A stretch of DNA of 64,000 nucleotides, taken from NCBI RefSeq assembly GCF_000327285.1, contig NZ_HE998567.1, positions 183,136-247,135 of the forward strand, written 5' to 3'. Origin of the DNA: Holdemania massiliensis AP2. GTDB taxonomy: Bacteria; Bacillota_I; Bacilli_A; Erysipelotrichales; Erysipelotrichaceae. The notes under the pieces are model-generated. The model was not told the DNA's origin and ran no database searches. It worked only from the letters and a program-made list of their open reading frames with translations. A program made the position numbers and the translations under genes. Shown here piece by piece: positions 16,206 to 26,771 of this stretch. The stretch's first letter is position 1, and the number at the start of each line of letters is the position of its first letter.

Positions 16206-17975
16206 ATGCGTCTGAGCGAGGAAGAAATCACCGCGGTCAGAAACAGCGCGGATATCGCGGAAGTCATCGGACACTATCTGCCGTTAGTCAAAAAAGGCCG
16301 TTCGATGGCCTGTGTCTGCCCCTTCCACGACGATCATGATCCGTCGCTGTCGATCTCTCAAGACAAACAGATTTATAAATGTTTCGTCTGCGGCGCCGGC
16401 GGCAACGTCTTTACCTTCGTCCAGAATTATGAAAAAGTAAGCTTTCCTGAAGCCGTTGCCAAGGTTGCAGAGATTAGCGGCTACAAGCTTTCTTTCGATC
16501 CCTCTGCATTGAAAACGCCGGTGGATCCGAAGAAAGACGTATTATATAAGGTACTGGCGGAAACGATTCGCTACACCCATTATCAGCTGGGGGCTCAGGC
16601 GGGAACGCCGGTGCGTCAGTATCTGTCCCAGCGCGGGATCGACGAAGCTACGATTGAAAAGTTTGAGATCGGCTGGAATGGTCCTGGGGATGAACTGCTT
16701 CGTTTTCTTCAGGCCAAGGGCTATAACGAACAGGATATGGTGGCTTCCAATGTCGTAAGACTGAATGAAAGCGGTCTTCACGATGTGTTTTCCAGCCGAA
16801 TCACATTTCCGATTCATGACTCACTCGGCAATCCGATCGGATTTACCGCCCGCAGCATGGATCCGGAAGCGCAAAGCAAGTATATCAACACGACCGAAAC
16901 CGATGTTTACGTCAAAGGTCATACCGTCTTCAACTACCATCGTGCTAAACAGCCCTCCCGTCAGGAAGGGCGGGTGCTTTTATGCGAGGGAGTCACCGAT
17001 GTGCTGGCTTTTTCCCAGGCGGGAATGGACAATGTTGTCGCAACGCTGGGCACAGCCTGCACGTCTGAGCAGCTGCGGCTGCTGCGGCAATGTTCGCTCC
17101 ATCTGACTTTCTGTTACGATGGCGATAAAGCCGGACAGAATGCGACCTACAAGGCGGCGCAGCTGGCCCGCGCGGCCGGCTTTGAGGTGGGCATTGTCAA
17201 CAATCAAACCGGATTGGATCCGGATGAGATTCTGCGTCGGCACGGCGCGGAAGAATTGAAGGCCATGACCCGCAAAGAGCTGACGTGGATGGAATTTGTT
17301 TTCCAGTATTTAGCCAGCCGCTACGATCTGGAAAATTATTCTGAGAAAAAGGAATTCACGTTCAAAGTTGAAGCCGAGATTAAACAGCTCACCGATGAAT
17401 TTGACCGACAGAATTTTGCCCATCAGCTGGAACAGTTAACCGGATTTCATCTGGATCTGGGGGCAGCTCCTGCCTTGAAAACAGAAGATTCCCCGTCCAG
17501 CAGGGTAAAAAGAGTTCCAGTTCGTTTAAATCCGTCGCGAGATGGTAAGACTAATGCAGAACACCTGATTCTGGCGCTAATGCTTACCAGCCGCGATGCT
17601 GTAGAAATGTTCAAAGAAAAACTCGGTTTTCTGCTCAATGAAGAAAATCAGCAGCTGGCGATGATGATCCTGGATTACAGCCGGTCCCATCCTCAGCTGC
17701 AGCTTGCGGATTTCATCAGTACGATTGATGAGGAAGCGCTGAGACAAAAGGTTCTGGATCTTTCAGAATGGGAGTGTCCACAATTTACACCGGAAGTGAT
17801 GGAGGGAGCAGTCCGCCGTCTGCAGCGGTGTATGCTGGAAGAAAGAATAAATGATCTGAAACAACAGATCCTGCGGATCAGCAATCCGGAAAGCCAGGCT
17901 GCCCTTCTCCATGAACGGATGCAGCTGCAAAGAGAATTAAGGGGGTACCTTGATGAAGAAAAACACCAAGACTAA
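16206..17975 (+). CDS. dnaG: DNA primase
   Basis: A 589-residue primase making RNA primers for replication. The CHC2 zinc finger has Cys38, His41, Cys59 and Cys62 ([10 protein letters not shown] ... CFVCG). The TOPRIM core shows [10 protein letters not shown] and CYDGDKAG, giving the metal-binding acidic residues. The C-terminal 150 residues are the helicase-binding region. Three ATG codons in a row lie at 16200, 16203 and 16206; AGGGGGG at 16192-16198 fits the third best. dnaG-rpoD order matches the macromolecular synthesis operon. Confidence 0.96.
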
Positions 17976-17985
17976 GGAGACAAAA

Positions 17986-19179
17986 ATGCCAGTTTACAAA
18001 ACGTTGGATCAATTAAAGGAAGAATTTAAAAAGACCTATCTTGCCGATAAGGTGATTTATCAGAAGGATGTCATGGATGCTCTGGAGCATCTGGATCTGA
18101 CTGATAATGATATGGATGACCTGTACGAATGGTTCGCTGCCGAAGGCATCGATATCAGTGAGGATGACGATATCGAGGAATTGGAAAATATCGATATTCC
18201 TGAAGCCGGAGCGATGACCCAGGATATCGGCGATGATCTGGAGTTTTTAGCGGAAGATGCCGGCGAGGATTTCGATGCGGAAGTTGAAGACGTTGAAGTT
18301 CCAGTCGACCTCAGCGAAACTTACAGCAGTTCTCCTTATGTACGGATCAATGACCCAGTCAAGATGTATCTGAAGGAAATCGGACGGGTACCGCTGCTGA
18401 ATCCGGAAGATGAGCCGGAAATTGCCCGGCGGATTCAGGCCGGTGATGAAGAGGCTAAACGCATTCTGATTTCTTCCAATCTGCGTTTGGTCGTTTCGAT
18501 TGCCAAAAAATATGTCGGCCGCGGCATGTTGTTTCTGGATCTGATTCAGGAAGGCAACATGGGTTTGGTCAAAGCTGTTGAAAAATTTGACTACACCAAG
18601 GGCTTTAAGTTTTCGACCTATGCAACCTGGTGGATCCGTCAGGCGATCACCCGTGCGATTGCCGACCAGGCTCGAACGATCCGAATTCCGGTACATATGG
18701 TAGAAACCATCAACAAATTAACTCGTGTACAGCGCCAGCTTGTTCAGGATCTGGGCCGGGAGCCGACGGCAGAGGAAATTGCCGAAAAGATGGAAAACAT
18801 TACGCCGGATAAGGTACGCGAAATTCAGAAGATTGCCTTAGAACCCGTATCGCTGGAAACCCCGATCGGTGAGGAAGATGATTCCCACCTGGGTGATTTT
18901 ATCGAGGATAAAGACGCGATGTCGCCGGATCAGTATGCCAACAATCAGCTGCTGAAAGATGAGATCAACAATGTTCTGCAGGGCTTGACGGAACGGGAAG
19001 AAAAAGTGCTGCGGCTGCGGTTTGGCCTGTATGACGGCCGGACGCGGACGTTGGAGGAAGTCGGTAAGGAATTCAACGTAACCCGTGAACGTATTCGTCA
19101 GATTGAGGCGAAGGCACTGCGGAAGCTGAAACATCCGACCCGCTCGAAGCGGCTGCGGGATTTCGTCGATAAGAATTAA
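17986..19179 (+). CDS. rpoD: Primary RNA polymerase sigma factor
   Basis: A 397-residue primary sigma factor (SigA). Region 1.1 is short and acidic (about residues 1-105), region 1.2 starts at [16 protein letters not shown], region 2 has [27 protein letters not shown] in segments plus [14 protein letters not shown], region 3 follows, and region 4 has the helix-turn-helix [28 protein letters not shown] at 17986 is chosen because AAGGAGA (17974-17980) precedes it by 5 bp and overlaps the dnaG stop; TTG and ATG codons at 17950/17953 remain possible. Confidence 0.96.
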
Positions 19180-20160: not shown

Positions 20161-20865
20161 ATGAATAGTAAAAAAACAATCTTGTATTTAATCGGATTTT
20201 TCCTGTGCCAGATCGTTTTGGTGGCAGCCGTGTTCGGCGTCCAGAAGGAAATGGCGATCTTTGAGATCTTTGTGATCATTTCGTTTGCGATCGGGATTAC
20301 GCTGGTTGGTGATTTCTGCATCTTTGAAATTATCCGCAGCGTCATGCAGTACAACGAAGCGGAACTCGAATTGAAGCGGATGACAGAACTGAATCAAAAG
20401 AACTATCAGTTTTATCAGTTTGCGGTCATGCAGCAGAAAAACATTCGTTACTTTTATCATGATCTGTCCAATCATTTGATGACATTGCAGATTTTGAAGG
20501 AGCAGGGACAGGAAGCAGAGCTGAAAATTTATGCTGAGAAAATTCTGAGTCAATATCAGACACAGCTGCCGGCTTATCAAACGGGGAATGTCATGCTGGA
20601 TATTTTAATCCAGTATTATCAGCTTCATGAAGATACATGCACGTTGGCAGTAAAAGGTCAGGTTCCCCAACAGATTGATTTTACCGGACTGCTGGAACTT
20701 CTGCATGGACTGGCCGAACCTTATGCTGGGAAGCAAGTGACGATCTGCTTTGATCCGCAGCTGCATCTGGAGGTACCCGCTCCTAAAAATGCGCAAATGC
20801 AGGAATGCTTGCGGTTACTGAGAGCCGCTGTAAATTCAATCGAGATTGACGAGGTGAACTGCTGA
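20161..20865 (+). CDS. AgrC-like membrane protein: acceptor His kept, ATPase degenerate
   Basis: A 234-residue membrane protein related to GHKL-type (AgrC/ComD) sensor kinases. GAGGGGG at 20149-20155 supports the start at 20161. Two membrane helices (about residues 5-26 and 33-55) replace the usual six. The phosphotransfer motif is intact: YHDLSNHL with His100, Asp101 and Asn104, followed by TGNVMLDILIQYYQLHED as expected. The region where the N box should be reads LLELLHGLAEPYAG, without the catalytic Asn, and the protein ends about 65 residues later with no G boxes. It can probably accept but not make phosphate. It overlaps the next gene by one base. Confidence 0.85.
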   Translation: MNSKKTILYLIGFFLCQIVLVAAVFGVQKEMAIFEIFVIISFAIGITLVGDFCIFEIIRSVMQYNEAELELKRMTELNQKNYQFYQFAVMQQKNIRYFYHDLSNHLMTLQILKEQGQEAELKIYAEKILSQYQTQLPAYQTGNVMLDILIQYYQLHEDTCTLAVKGQVPQQIDFTGLLELLHGLAEPYAGKQVTICFDPQLHLEVPAPKNAQMQECLRLLRAAVNSIEIDEVNC

Positions 20866-22112
20866 TGCTGGATCAAACGCTGTATTATCTGAATCACATC
20901 CCCTTGATGATGACTTGGGCTTATTTTTACAATGAATTTCTGCCGGTTCGGAAAAGCTATCGGAAAGATTATGTGATGTTGGCAGCGGCGATCTTAGCTG
21001 CAGTGCTGGTCTTGATCCAGATCTATGAAATTCCCGGCAGCGAGCAGGATAATGCTGTTTTTCGGATGACGGTATCGGCCGCGACGATCGGTGTTGTTGT
21101 TTATCTGGTAAAAGGGGCCGGCTTGAAAGCCACAGTATTTGCCCTGTTTGCCCAGCAGCTGCTTTCCATTACCGCTGAAATGGTAACCATGCTGATCACC
21201 CTGGTCGGGGTGCAGTTCAGCCGCAGCGCCTATGAAGGCACCTTCTATATGAATGTCTATTCGTATGTTCTGCTCGATATCATGAGCCTTTTGTTTTTTA
21301 TGCTGGCTTTAGGAATTGTCAGAAAACGCCAGGGAACAACGGAGGGGGAATATACGACTATCGGCACGTTGCTTTTAATCTGCCAGTTTCTATGGCTTTA
21401 CATCCTTTCTTATAAACTGATCTATATCGTTGAAGCCAGTACGATGCTTTTGGTTCAGTCCTTGCTCTTTTTGCTTCTGACTGATGCTGCAGTTTTTGTC
21501 ATTGCCCGCCGGATTATCCGTCAGAAACGAAAGAAGCAGGAACTCGAAGCGAAACGCCAGATGAATGCGGAGCTGGAAATTCAGCTGCGGAAACTTTCCG
21601 AGAAGCAGGATGTTATCAATGCCGTCTTCAAAGAGATGACAGGACTGGATGATCAGCTTGAAACTCTAAGTACGCTGCAGCATCAAATGAAGCAGATTCG
21701 TGAAGATCTGATCTGTGCTAATCCATACGTTAATGCCTTGCTGAATGCTTATCTTATCGAAGCAAAGGAAAAACAAATTTCAATGCAGTTTGAAATCAAA
21801 GCGGAGCTGTTGAAGGGGATTGACAATTATGATTTGAATACGCTGCTGTCGAATCTGCTGAAAAACGCTGTTGAAGCTTCCGAAAACAGTGAAAATCCGA
21901 TGGTGACGCTGCAGCTTACGGAAAAGGCCGGATTGCTGATGATCCGCTGCTGCAACAGTGTTGCTGAACAGCCCAGTCCGGTTAAGAAAAGAATCCAGGG
22001 ACAGGGGCTCATGATCATGGATGAAATTCTGCAGCGGTATCAGGGAGTGCGAAGCATGAAGCAGGAGCAGAACCTGGCCGTGGCGGAAGTGATGCTGAAG
22101 AAAGAAGGCTGA
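20865..22112 (+). CDS. AgrC-like sensor with ATPase domain but no acceptor His (copy 1)
   Basis: A 415-residue protein with about six membrane helices (residues 1-215), a coiled linker, and a GHKL ATPase domain. The N box is intact (LLSNLLKNAVEA, Asn330 and Asn334) and a G-box remnant reads GQGLMIMDEILQRYQG. At the position of the usual R-H-D-x-x-N-H acceptor motif it has KQDVINAV, with Gln248 in place of His. It is a tandem paralogue of the next gene. It lies in a tight three-gene set; the nearest response regulator is the reverse-strand LytTR gene at 23407. The ligand is unknown. Confidence 0.85.
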   Translation: MLDQTLYYLNHIPLMMTWAYFYNEFLPVRKSYRKDYVMLAAAILAAVLVLIQIYEIPGSEQDNAVFRMTVSAATIGVVVYLVKGAGLKATVFALFAQQLLSITAEMVTMLITLVGVQFSRSAYEGTFYMNVYSYVLLDIMSLLFFMLALGIVRKRQGTTEGEYTTIGTLLLICQFLWLYILSYKLIYIVEASTMLLVQSLLFLLLTDAAVFVIARRIIRQKRKKQELEAKRQMNAELEIQLRKLSEKQDVINAVFKEMTGLDDQLETLSTLQHQMKQIREDLICANPYVNALLNAYLIEAKEKQISMQFEIKAELLKGIDNYDLNTLLSNLLKNAVEASENSENPMVTLQLTEKAGLLMIRCCNSVAEQPSPVKKRIQGQGLMIMDEILQRYQGVRSMKQEQNLAVAEVMLKKEG

Positions 22113-22115
22113 CGT

Positions 22116-23390
22116 ATGCTGAATGACAATCCTTTCTTCTATGTTAACCATCTCATTTTATTTGGAATTTGGACGGCTTTTCATGGGACATTTCTGCATT
22201 CCAAAGAACCTCGGAATGCCTTTTTCCCCAAGCTGTATCTGGCTATCACGATCAATGCCATCATCAACTATATTCTGTTTTTTCTGTTTGCGGATTTCTT
22301 TTCTGTCAATCTGGTACGAACGCTGTTTACCGTAATCATGCTTTATCTAGTCCTGCGGCTGATGATCCAGGATACGCGAATGAATACCCTGTTTGCTGTG
22401 CTTTTTCATGTGCTGTGCCTGGTGATTTCAGAAATGCTGGCGATTTTGATCATGCTGGCCGGCAGCGGCTTCGATCAGCTCGCGTTTGAAGAAGCTTCGT
22501 TTTTTGGAACTGTGGGTTTCGTGGTGATGGATGGAATTCAAGGACTTCTTTTTGGTTTGATCTTGATTCTGAAAAAGAAAGTCTTTCCTAACATTGACTG
22601 GCAGAAACAGGCGCGCTTGGTCCCGCTGCTGGCCATTCATGCCGGCTGGATCTATCTCTTATCTTATAAACTGATCTATGCCTATGAAATGACTGTGAAC
22701 TTAACAGGTTTTCTGATCGTATCCTGGATTTGTGTGCAGGGCGCTTCGTTTTTCTTAATTCGGAGTCTGCTGAAAATGAAAACAGCGAAAGAACGAGCTG
22801 AACTTGAACATCAAAACAATCTTGAAATTCAGGCTCAGCTGATGGAGCTGCATGCAAAGCAAAGCGTCATGAACAAAGTGTGGGCATCCGTTCAGTCCCA
22901 GGCATCCGAATGGAATGTCGATCAGATTCGTGCAGCTTATGATCAGATTGGTTCTATCCGGAATTCCTTATACTGTGATCATCCTTCTGTCAACGCTTTG
23001 CTGGCGTCTTTTCAGCGTCAGTTTGATGCAAAAGATATTGAATTTACGGTGGAGATCAAGGCTTCTTTCGCTTCGGGCTTCGATGATTTTGATCTGAACA
23101 CACTGTTGGCAAATCTATTAAAAAATGCCCTGGAAGCGGCGCAGGACAGTCCGCAGGCTTTTGTTCATTTAACGATTACCCAGCACAAGCAGATGATTTT
23201 AATCCGTTGTGAAAATACCAATGGCAGAATGCATTCCAGTCCGAAGCTGATTCAGGGCAACGGGAAGAAAATTATCACGCAGCTGGCTGAGCGTTACCAT
23301 GGACAGGCTCGGTGGAATAAACAAGCCCGCACTACAACCGCAGAAGTGCTGCTGAACAAAGAAGATTCAAAATTGTGTGAAACAGATTAA
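22116..23390 (+). CDS. AgrC-like sensor with ATPase domain but no acceptor His (copy 2)
   Basis: A 424-residue paralogue of the preceding protein, starting 3 bp after it. Shared features include the helix sequence LLSYKLIYAYE, the N box LLANLLKNALEA (Asn333 and Asn337) and the layout of six membrane helices plus linker. The acceptor position reads AKQSVMNKV, with Gln249 instead of His and Ser instead of Asp. The last glycine box is GNGKKIITQLAERYHG. It looks like a divergent tandem duplicate. It converges on the LytTR regulator with 16 bp between stops, which hold a CCGCGG inverted repeat (23395-23420) able to form a short hairpin. Confidence 0.84.
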   Translation: MLNDNPFFYVNHLILFGIWTAFHGTFLHSKEPRNAFFPKLYLAITINAIINYILFFLFADFFSVNLVRTLFTVIMLYLVLRLMIQDTRMNTLFAVLFHVLCLVISEMLAILIMLAGSGFDQLAFEEASFFGTVGFVVMDGIQGLLFGLILILKKKVFPNIDWQKQARLVPLLAIHAGWIYLLSYKLIYAYEMTVNLTGFLIVSWICVQGASFFLIRSLLKMKTAKERAELEHQNNLEIQAQLMELHAKQSVMNKVWASVQSQASEWNVDQIRAAYDQIGSIRNSLYCDHPSVNALLASFQRQFDAKDIEFTVEIKASFASGFDDFDLNTLLANLLKNALEAAQDSPQAFVHLTITQHKQMILIRCENTNGRMHSSPKLIQGNGKKIITQLAERYHGQARWNKQARTTTAEVLLNKEDSKLCETD

Positions 23391-23406
23391 AAGAACCGCG
23401 GTTTTG

Positions 23407-24180
23407 TTATTCCGCGGACTCGATGTCAAAGAATTGTTTCATAATCGCATTCATCGTTGCTTTTTTATAACTGCGGGAGATCGGGATGAACGCATCATTG
23501 AATAAAATAAGCCCCTTGGTTTCTACGGATTTGACATAGTTCAAATTCGCGATGTAGGAACGATGGGTCTGCACAAAGGACTGCGGCAGCTTTGGCAGAT
23601 AGTCATCAAATACGGCATAGGTGATGATCTGCATCGTGGATTCAAGCGAATCGCTTTTCTGTGAACCCGCTTTGGTCATCCGACAGTTAAAGATGATTTT
23701 GCGGCGGTCTTTCTCCAGGTAAAGGATATCTTGATACAGAATCAGCCGAGGATGTCGGTTAATCATGACCGTTAAGGAATCCTGCCCGATTTGTCTGCCC
23801 TGCAGAACGTTCAGCGCTTTATTCATGGCGAGGGGCAGCCGTCTTTCCAAGTCTTCCTTTAACAGGCAGTAAACATGCTGACAAAGATAGACGTCAGGAA
23901 AATACTGAAGATATCCGGTAATAAAAATAATCTGTAATTCAGGGGCGATTACAGAACACTTCTGAGCCAATTCCAGACTCGTCTGTTTTTCAGCCTCAAA
24001 TCGAATGTCCAGTAAAAGCAGATCAAACTGGCCGTCAAAAATCTGATCCTGAAGCTCCTGCAGGGAAGTCCAGGTTGTAATATAAGCCTCAGTCCTTCTT
24101 TCTTTGAGAATTGCCTGAGCTAACTGCCTGATTTTTTCCAGCTCATAGGGCGCATCATCACAGATGGCAACTCGAATCAC
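23407..24180 (-). CDS. LytTR-type response regulator (AgrA-like)
   Basis: A 257-residue response regulator. The receiver domain has the acidic pair VAICDD and the acceptor Asp in LLLLDIRFE. The C-terminal 110 residues are a LytTR DNA-binding domain (ILYLEKDRRKIIF, FVQTHRSYIANLNYVKSV, IPISRSYKK). I choose the GTG at 24180 because GGGGGGA lies 6 bp upstream; an ATG at 24195 overlaps that site. It faces the three AgrC-like genes and is divergent from the membrane-protein/LytTR operon. It is the likely partner of the degenerate kinases, and the direct repeat at 24379-24408 is a candidate target. Confidence 0.88.
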   Translation of the reverse strand: MIRVAICDDAPYELEKIRQLAQAILKERRTEAYITTWTSLQELQDQIFDGQFDLLLLDIRFEAEKQTSLELAQKCSVIAPELQIIFITGYLQYFPDVYLCQHVYCLLKEDLERRLPLAMNKALNVLQGRQIGQDSLTVMINRHPRLILYQDILYLEKDRRKIIFNCRMTKAGSQKSDSLESTMQIITYAVFDDYLPKLPQSFVQTHRSYIANLNYVKSVETKGLILFNDAFIPISRSYKKATMNAIMKQFFDIESAE

Positions 24181-24378
24181 AATTATTCCCCCCATATCAT
24201 TTCAAAATGAAATTGCTTAACCATAATAGATAATCTTATTTTAACATGAAGCCGCTTCCTATTTCTATTTTATACGAAAAATAAATCGAACGTCTATTCT
24301 GTGAATTTGGAATCTGCAATAATAGAAGTGTTCTTTTCCAGATATTCGAGAAAGAAGTACATTAATTCTTATAGAAAC

Positions 24379-24475: not shown

Positions 24476-25888
24476 ATGGCCAGAATGGGAATAACAATAC
24501 TGATTACGCTGATCCTATTCGCAGCCGGCTTGTTGTGGATACTGACGTATTCTAAATATCAGCGGCAGGAAATTCAGGGAGCGGAAACAGCGATGAACGG
24601 CAGTCCGCAGTCCATCGTGATGGTGGGCGCCGGATTGGCACTCTTATTGCTGCAATGGGATTCTCCGGTCTCCCCGCTGCAGTGGCTGATGTTTGCGGCG
24701 GCTGCGGTGGGCTTTATTCACTTGACACGGAATCTGCGGCAGGGATTATTTGCCGGGGCCGGCTTATTGTTATTGGCGGGCATGCTGATGAAGCTGGTAT
24801 GGAATGAGGCGTTAGTCCAGCGGATGCTGCCGTTGGTTTTCTTCATGGGATATGAATGTTTGGCAGCCGGTTTTTTTGCCAGTTCGACAGAACCCATCGT
24901 TCGCCGACGCTTCCAAAATTTAATGGTATGGCTGGCTTTGATGTTTGCCGTGGTGCTGCTTGCCCGTGCGAATGCCCAATGGCTGTCTATGCAGTCATTC
25001 TTTCAGCTGATCTGTGCTTATAAAGTCTATTCACGAGCTTTGGATTTCAGGGAACAGTTCTATTTCGTGCAGAAACAGAGTCGAACAGTCCATTGGAAAC
25101 CGGTTCAGGCCGGTTTGCTTTTCGCTGCAGCAGCAATCCTGCTTGCGGCAACGCAGACTGGATTAATCCGCTCAGAAATTAAAAATTCTCAGCCTGCAGT
25201 CTGGGTCTATCGAACAGAAGATGAACACTTGAGCAATGTGATTGTGATCCAAGGCAGACAGGTTAAAATCAATTTGGCCTATCCGGTCAGTGAAACTTAT
25301 CAAGATACTACGGTTTCATTGAAAATCACTGAGAGTGAAACGGGGGAGATCGTCTATGAAACTGAAGAAGCATTGGATGATGGTCAGACGGAGCCCGGCA
25401 GTTATTGGATTCTCAGCGAACACCCGGGCCTCAATTTAGCGGATCGTCAGCCAAAACCCTGGACAATCAGCTGGTCAATCCGCAAAGGAGATCAGGTTTT
25501 GGAAGCGCAGACTTTGAACTGTGAACCCACGATGATCCCAACCTTTGCGGGAGAAGGCCGTTACTTTCAAATTTACAATCTGGCGGCAGGCTATGGTTAT
25601 TTTTCGAGCGCGGAGGTTATCGCCAGGAACACGCTTCAGATCAATCTTCTGCGTTATCGCAATTTAAACTATCGGATCACGATGTTTGATGCGCAGGGAC
25701 AAGCTGTGGTTGAGAGTGCTTCTTCCGGAACGTTGGGATTGGGAGAAACGGTAAGCATGAGCCGTTCCGGCTGGGGTGTTGACTTTACGGATGCGGAAGC
25801 GGTCCGCGGCGAAATCACAGTCTGGGTCAGCGATACGGAAGGAAAGAAGTTCTATGAAGAAACGATAGAGCTGGTGAAGCAGCCATGA
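24476..25888 (+). CDS. Unknown polytopic membrane protein with external C-terminal domain
   Basis: A 470-residue protein without a family that I recognise. GGGGAGGGA precedes the ATG. The first half has about seven hydrophobic segments, the last around residues 205-225. The remaining 240 residues are soluble, rich in Thr, Ser, Glu and Tyr, with alternating patterns suggesting beta structure (VSLKITESETGEIVYETEE), and probably lie outside the cell. It opens a three-gene operon with 4 bp ATGA overlaps, followed by a LytTR regulator and a small membrane protein. It may be the effector or target of that regulatory pair, but no function can be read from the sequence. Confidence 0.82.
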   Translation: MARMGITILITLILFAAGLLWILTYSKYQRQEIQGAETAMNGSPQSIVMVGAGLALLLLQWDSPVSPLQWLMFAAAAVGFIHLTRNLRQGLFAGAGLLLLAGMLMKLVWNEALVQRMLPLVFFMGYECLAAGFFASSTEPIVRRRFQNLMVWLALMFAVVLLARANAQWLSMQSFFQLICAYKVYSRALDFREQFYFVQKQSRTVHWKPVQAGLLFAAAAILLAATQTGLIRSEIKNSQPAVWVYRTEDEHLSNVIVIQGRQVKINLAYPVSETYQDTTVSLKITESETGEIVYETEEALDDGQTEPGSYWILSEHPGLNLADRQPKPWTISWSIRKGDQVLEAQTLNCEPTMIPTFAGEGRYFQIYNLAAGYGYFSSAEVIARNTLQINLLRYRNLNYRITMFDAQGQAVVESASSGTLGLGETVSMSRSGWGVDFTDAEAVRGEITVWVSDTEGKKFYEETIELVKQP

Positions 25889-26409
25889 TCAATCTGATTT
25901 GCCGGCCGGACCATGAGGAACAGCTGCGGCAGCGGCTTCAATCCTTTGAAGCTCTGGATTTAACTTTGGTTGAAAAAGGTGTGGATTATAATTCGATCGG
26001 CATTCAATTTCAAATGGAAGATCTTGATGAATTAATCACTTTTCTCAACGATCATTTTTTGCAAAAGAAGGGCATGACGCTGACTGGACAAAAGGCCGGA
26101 CGTACCTATGTCGTGGATTTATCCGATGTCTTGTATATCGAAGGACTGCAGCGTGAAACCTTTGCTTATACAGATCACTTAGGCCTTCAGCTAAACCGCA
26201 AGCTGTATCAGCTGCAGGAAGAGTTGTATCCGCGGCAGTTCATTCGGATCAGTAAATCTTATCTCGTCAATCTGGCAAAGGTGGAACAGATTGCCCCCAG
26301 TTTTAACGGTAGGCTGACGTTGATCTTGAAAAATGGGACCCAGCTGGAGGTCAGCCGCAGCTATGCCCCGCATTTTCGCAAAGCGATAGGAATGGAGAGA
26401 AAACGATGA
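25885..26409 (+). CDS. Standalone LytTR DNA-binding regulator
   Basis: A 174-residue transcription factor with no receiver domain. An N-terminal domain of about 65 residues (INLICRPDHEEQLRQRL) precedes the LytTR domain, marked by DVLYIEGLQRETFAYT, RQFIRISKSYLVNLAKVEQI and LEVSRSYAPHFRKAIG. The layout matches the regulator of LytTR regulatory systems, in which a membrane protein encoded next door restrains it. It overlaps both neighbours by 4 bp. A likely target is its own operon through the 21 bp-periodic repeat at 24379-24408. Confidence 0.85.
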   Translation: MINLICRPDHEEQLRQRLQSFEALDLTLVEKGVDYNSIGIQFQMEDLDELITFLNDHFLQKKGMTLTGQKAGRTYVVDLSDVLYIEGLQRETFAYTDHLGLQLNRKLYQLQEELYPRQFIRISKSYLVNLAKVEQIAPSFNGRLTLILKNGTQLEVSRSYAPHFRKAIGMERKR

Positions 26410-26771
26410 TTGAACGCTTGATTTATAACGGTATGATCGGCATGGCAATCCCTGTACTGGCGCAGTTTCTTGATTCACGCAGGGCATCGCCGGACTGGCT
26501 TTGGATTGTTTTGGCCGGGGCGGCCTATGCTTTGTTTTTAGAAAGCTATCGAATCTGGATGCAGTCTTTGCAGCGGGGGCAGACAGGCATTACAATCGCA
26601 AGTGTGTTTATCTTAACCGTCGTTGTTTTCAGTCATTTGACGTTTGAAGGTTTGTTTATGCTGATCGCTTTGAGTCTTTCCATGATTTCCTTGGTTCGTT
26701 CAACGAAGAAATATACTCAGGCTTTAGATCACTTTAAACAGCAGCTGCAGGAAGACCATGATGATCAATGA
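26406..26771 (+). CDS. Small membrane protein, probable LytTR inhibitor (DUF3021-like)
   Basis: A 121-residue protein with four hydrophobic segments (about residues 7-22, 29-46, 56-74 and 78-92) and a charged cytoplasmic tail. Size, topology and position directly after a standalone LytTR gene resemble the DUF3021-like membrane inhibitors of LytTR regulatory systems (HdrM and BrsM in Streptococcus mutans). The sequence similarity was judged by eye and is weak. It overlaps the regulator by ATGA, which fits equal production of the two partners. Confidence 0.65.
   Translation: MIERLIYNGMIGMAIPVLAQFLDSRRASPDWLWIVLAGAAYALFLESYRIWMQSLQRGQTGITIASVFILTVVVFSHLTFEGLFMLIALSLSMISLVRSTKKYTQALDHFKQQLQEDHDDQ

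Follow-up and report, generated by a model that had tools for sequence, protein, structure and literature searches.

A putative split AgrC-type histidine kinase in Holdemania, with acceptor histidine and ATPase domain encoded by adjacent genes

The 64,000-nucleotide stretch of the Holdemania massiliensis AP2 genome that we analysed (contig NZ_HE998567.1, hereafter the window) contains three consecutive membrane protein genes, P1, P2 and P3, which lie in this order on the forward strand, 3' of rpoD and a methyltransferase-like gene (Table 1). P1 starts with the ATG at 20161, the start codon of P2 overlaps the stop codon of P1 (TGATG), and P2 and P3 are separated by 3 bases. P3 is a paralogue of P2 (29% identity). 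The initial annotation of this DNA had described three AgrC-like membrane proteins in a row that were degenerate in complementary ways. The open reading frames at these positions and a domain scan confirm the row and its complementarity, but the membrane part of P1 consists of two transmembrane (TM) helices and is not AgrC-like.

Table 1. Features of the cassette and its surroundings in the window, and reverse-layout cassettes in other genomes.
Feature	Location	Strand	Description
rpoD	17950-19179		upstream of cassette
P1	20161..20865	+	234-aa 2-TM putative acceptor subunit; DHp with HDLSN; truncated ATPase remnant
P1 His100 codon	20458..20460	+	proposed phospho-acceptor; HDLSN invariant in four species
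P2	20865..22112	+	415-aa 6-7 TM sensor; GHKL ATPase; no acceptor His
P2 acceptor-register Gln (KQDVINAV)	21606..21608	+	Q or E in relatives
P2 N box (NLLKNA)	21852..21869	+	
P3	22116..23390	+	424-aa 6-7 TM sensor; GHKL ATPase; no acceptor His
P3 acceptor-register Gln (AKQSVMNKV)	22860..22862	+	Q in all relatives
P3 N box (NLLKNA)	23112..23129	+	
REC-LytTR response regulator	23407..24195	-	convergent to cassette; likely target, putative partner
Reverse cassette L054	G101		one receptor
Reverse cassette L098	G110		two receptors
Reverse cassette L102	G052		three receptors
Reverse cassette L112	G077		three receptors
Reverse cassette L117	G045		three receptors
Reverse cassette L099	G095		four receptors, one ATPase

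In P1, H100 lies within FYHDLSNHL. The stretch that aligns with the N box reads DFTGLLELLHGLAEPY, in which both N-box Asn residues are gone, and the C-terminus precedes any G box. A Pfam scan of P1 matched neither a GHKL domain nor a kinase domain. These features confirm the earlier claim that P1 keeps the acceptor histidine and lacks the N-box Asn and the G boxes. The structural model of P1 (low confidence, pLDDT 57) predicts two TM helices, a long helix bearing His100, a hairpin and a broken-off alpha/beta remnant; its best fold match is AgrC, followed by Spo0B, neither being significant, and a search of solved structures with the P1 profile returned chance matches only. The structure models were built from 2 and 4 sequences and have a mean pLDDT of about 57.

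P2 and P3 each match PF14501 in the Pfam scan (E 2e-11 and 1e-8), with N-box contexts SNLLKNAVEA and ANLLKNALEA, and both have a G2 box (QGQGL in P2, QGNGK in P3). The N box is thus kept as had been proposed, and Gln occupies the acceptor position, a placement made by register because the conventional-kinase profile aligns poorly over that part. We also considered an alternative acceptor elsewhere in these two chains. Comparison of two species shows no conserved cytoplasmic histidine in P2 or P3, the sole invariant one being H11, close to the N-terminus, and we rejected this candidate on that ground. Of the features that define an AgrC-type kinase, a PF14501 GHKL domain with N and G2 boxes is present in P2 and P3 and absent from P1, and neither P2 nor P3 carries histidine and ATPase on one chain. 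Given the Gln at the acceptor register and the lack of a conserved cytoplasmic His, we class P2 and P3 only as AgrC-derived, not as AgrC kinases. The P2 model is reliable solely in its ATPase part (pLDDT 70-85), and its best match is the AgrC kinase module 6e95 (E 9.5e-11). A profile of the ATPase chains likewise ranks AgrC first among solved structures, whereas profiles of the Holdemania P2 and P3 alone gave no match there.

The P1-P2-P3 cassette is not peculiar to this genome. A Holdemania record has the same cassette (P1 51% identity), and the three genes are adjacent in 4/4 genomes of the genus (the window genome, G001, G002 and G003). As protein identity among the three divergent Holdemania lineages is only 38-65%, the arrangement is unlikely to be due to chance. 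The acceptor motif of P1 is HDLSN in all four genomes, and His never occurs at the corresponding register of P2 (KQD, KQA, KEA) or P3 (KQS, KQD, KQE), so that the complementarity, which the initial annotation had named as a point to check in relatives, holds throughout the genus. Across the four species, 33/40 of P1 residues 81-120 are invariant, compared with 1/34 of its last 34 residues, the truncated ATPase-domain remnant. In P2 and P3 conservation is highest around the N box, and in both proteins 14/20 positions of the block 321-340 that contains it are invariant. Each chain is therefore most conserved in the part that it should supply. Between G002 and G003, the closest pair, dN/dS is 0.08 for P1, 0.10 for P2 and 0.16 for P3; the cassette genes are under purifying selection.

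The regulator gene beside the cassette encodes a LytTR domain and a weak REC match with an intact phospho-Asp (LLLLDIRF). It had been put forward as the recipient of the phosphate. However, a REC-LytTR gene adjoins the cassette only in the window and in G001, and none lies beside it in G002 or G003. As the neighbour is not conserved in these two genomes, we assign it only as the probable final recipient.

Further LytTR genes were observed in these genomes. In G001 two REC-LytTR genes adjoin the cassette; in the first (L051 6639-7400) the phospho-Asp is replaced by Asn (LLLNLKQ), and the second is intact. The best regulator matches in G002 and G003 are orphans with the Asp intact (L129 2579-3295, YILDIRMPE, and L130 6105-6821, YILDIRMPG, respectively), and the syntenic orphan in the window genome (L131 6519-7235, G000 C3:333527) has Glu in its place (YLLEIKMPD). 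On the basis of two lineages, this pattern suggests that the partner regulator may have changed. At 25885-26771 of the window, a LytTR protein without REC overlaps a small 4-TM protein; the pair is kept in G002 and G003 and resembles LytTR regulator/membrane-inhibitor pairs.

The same layout occurs in another genus of the family (G309, L148). Here a 129-aa His protein with two hydrophobic helices, the motif HDYNN and the C-terminus KIHHDYNNHISTIIGLLHSGKEEEAKSFLGDVIKKINHSNE sits between a REC-LytTR gene and a gene for a 427-aa 7-TM GHKL protein. The 427-aa protein has ERISRLN at the acceptor register and no His, and in the His chain not even a remnant of the ATPase domain is left.

Elsewhere in the order the division is reversed. 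A 2-TM, His-less GHKL ATPase of about 250-300 aa has as neighbours between one and four receptors with 6-7 TM helices, each about 250-295 aa long and stopping 10-45 residues past HDxxN; in several cassettes the receptor stops 10-20 residues past the His, without a second DHp helix. Requiring the ATPase gene to adjoin the His gene directly, we found this layout in 17 genomes from 12 genera of both main families, in most cases with a REC-LytTR gene as neighbour. Scores in an order-wide profile search were largely bimodal: 17 places reached at least 267 bits and two fell at 206-221, all of split type, and the next scores, at most 163 bits, came mainly from conventional kinases with a few short or split-type members. 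In a class-level sample outside the order, no profile score was of split-type size. Judging from their sequences, the reverse-layout cassettes are most likely split kinases in which the ATPase chain would phosphorylate the His chain in trans.

We left four places out of the split count (L143 in G027, L156 in G041, L154 on contig C15 of G110, and L138 in G053) because a frameshift, decay or a contig end could mimic a split. At L143 3204-5100, a 7TMR-DISM-like receptor ends after RHNVLHHF, and next come an ATPase fragment of 150 aa and a LytTR regulator; the locus is either another kind of split or the result of a frameshift. At L138 3409-8071, a stop interrupts the ATPase frame upstream of four intact His receptors, through either an assembly error or decay in progress. 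A different arrangement was seen in G106 (L065 2393-5970), where a complete 249-aa GHKL kinase (RHDISKH) precedes two or more almost identical 7-TM proteins. Neither the His nor the N box survives in the DHp and ATPase parts of these proteins, which makes them pseudokinase receptors beside one kinase.

To ask which residues the two kinds of chain retain, we aligned 28 of the short acceptor receptors, chosen by position rather than by motif and only 10-20% identical to the first sequence. Their sole invariant residues are Met1 and the H, D and N of HDxxN. In an alignment of 22 His-less ATPase chains, which takes in the Holdemania P2 and P3, the invariant residues are both Asn of the N box, a third Asn and three ATP-site Gly. 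Conventional GHKL kinases from these genomes have His in the acceptor column in 52/52 cases (profile alignment). This pattern matches the prediction of one enzyme divided between chains.

Three reverse-type ATPases depart from it, with an HD or HE located in the acceptor register or close to it (HEIKN in G114, HDVIE in G126, HDMEH in G262). His partners do accompany those of G114 and G126, which weakens strict complementarity in the reverse-type group; Holdemania is unaffected. The G262 protein (L137 5332-6162) is the only split-type ATPase examined without an adjoining His partner, as would be expected if one chain or the other must supply the His; its close relatives, which have partners, carry Q or K before the D at this register. 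We discarded the p-value of an automated table of His against neighbour (raw counts 25/3 vs 5/54) because rows were misfiled: by eye, L036, L085 and L127 have the His and L072, L073 and L015 lack it. The loci in that table were also sampled non-randomly, and the homologues are not independent.

In a tree of the GHKL domain, the Holdemania P2 and P3 form their own clade (support 100/99) and the reverse-type ATPases fall into several supported clades, in an alignment of few columns with an unresolved backbone; the row L017_420, labelled 'full', is P2 of G003. The swap in which partner is polytopic suggests at least two origins of these split kinases.

Many histidine kinases phosphorylate across the dimer. 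We consider it likely that P1, P2 and P3 make up a hetero-oligomeric AgrC-type kinase whose catalytic residues are split between chains, with phosphorylation in trans and transfer of the phosphate to a REC-LytTR regulator. From the anatomy described above we infer the complex, the direction of phosphotransfer, the regulator and the signals as follows. P2 and P3 would serve as alternative sensors, each with 6-7 TM helices and a GHKL domain for ATP binding, and within mixed oligomers would phosphorylate His100 of the shared 2-TM P1. Phosphorylated P1 would then hand the phosphate to the REC-LytTR regulator, most plausibly the convergent neighbour, and P1, in which HDxxN is kept, would probably double as the phosphatase. 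The original proposal, that P2 and P3 provide the ATPase and P1 the histidine, agrees with the complementarity in four genomes, with G309 and with the reverse layout; the adjacency of the regulator is the part that does not hold throughout.

One alternative is that P1 is a Spo0B-TM-like membrane phosphotransferase between response regulators and that P2 and P3 are not its kinases. Spo0B is an acceptor-His bundle with a degenerate ATPase remnant, in Paenibacillus with two TM helices (PMC12826061), and Spo0B structures come after AgrC among the non-significant fold matches of P1. We nevertheless regard this explanation as improbable: translation of P1 and P2 is coupled, and P1 is in every case accompanied by P2-P3, which would be left without an acceptor; the His chains of G309 and of the reverse cassettes stop shortly beyond the acceptor helix, in contrast to Spo0B; and no REC-only partner protein lies beside P1. 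We give equally little credence to a scheme in which P2 and P3 are pseudokinase sensors, acting as allosteric or phosphatase partners of a P1 that is fed by another kinase. Kinase-like proteins without chemistry do exist, and G106 shows regulatory pseudo-receptors in this very order, but a scaffold need not keep both the N-box Asn residues and the G2 Gly, which P2 and P3 retain in four species under above-average constraint. That the three genes are a functionless, decaying kinase array is very improbable: although each has lost a kinase part and the end of P1 is unconserved, the open frames in four species, the conservation at motif level, the low dN/dS of the closest pair (0.08-0.16) and the equal division of labour in other lineages contradict pseudogene decay.

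If P1, P2 and P3 do constitute a split kinase, a class of membrane receptors joins the handful of known split kinases, recurring in two mirror-image topologies, and many genes of gut Bacillota whose annotation is hypothetical protein or orphan kinase could be read as pairs. The most surprising property of the split cassettes would be the use of one subunit by several sensors. We are evenly divided on a broader reading, that this order has hub-and-spoke membrane kinases in which several sensors share one partner holding the missing catalytic half, so that a mixed oligomer, and not a set of parallel pathways, would integrate the signals. In Holdemania two ATPase sensors would converge on one acceptor subunit, and in the reverse layout up to four acceptor receptors (in G095) would share one ATPase subunit; sharing a subunit would allow a single regulator to combine several signals. 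Such cassettes are natural material for asking why kinases split, and the receptors without a second DHp helix raise the question of how such a chain and its partner would complete the four-helix bundle.

The initial annotation knew of no described system with this layout. Split kinases as such are known, among them Rv0600c/Rv0601c/TcrA of M. tuberculosis. Others are CheA3/CheA4 of Rhodobacter sphaeroides, in which the acceptor chain is also a phosphatase (PMC3591291), and Hik36/Hik43 of Synechocystis (PMC7656254). Where the kinase and the phosphatase activity sit on separate chains, theory leads one to expect ultrasensitivity and bistability (PMC3591291). Our literature search found no AgrC-type or LytTR-linked split kinase, most subscription papers lying outside its reach, and the AgrC-type, LytTR-linked, multi-receptor form, widespread in this order, seems to have gone undescribed so far.

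The cassette resembles the AgrC-type (HPK10, GHKL) quorum-sensing kinases in its 6-7 TM sensors, PF14501 domain, HDxxN type of acceptor and, in the window and G001, an adjoining REC-LytTR regulator, and among solved structures those of S. aureus AgrC (4bxi, 6e52, 6e95) are the best matches of the P2 model and the ATPase profile. It differs from AgrC in having acceptor and ATPase on separate chains, and on inspection by eye we noticed no agrB or agrD beside it. With CheA3/CheA4, whose chains are inactive alone, it shares the complementary placement of His on one chain and ATPase on the other; CheA3/CheA4, however, is a cytoplasmic chemotaxis kinase built of P1/P4 domains rather than a membrane receptor with a DHp, has no LytTR regulator and is not shared by several sensors. 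Hik36/Hik43 is a CheA homologue in two genes whose products interact with one regulator, but these are soluble HPt and CheA parts encoded far apart. Spo0B and Spo0B-TM, which the P1 protein matches in outline, have a DHp with acceptor His and an ATPase remnant, with two TM helices in Paenibacillus (PMC12826061), whereas Spo0B is a phosphorelay step between Spo0F and Spo0A without an adjacent His-less kinase. Finally, the 'HisKA, no HATPase' proteins catalogued in archaea (PMC5847659) and in SMART counts (PMC3591291) keep the acceptor His and lack the ATPase domain, as P1 does; they are described as isolated proteins without an identified partner, whereas in the Holdemania cassette the putative ATPase partner is encoded by the adjacent gene.
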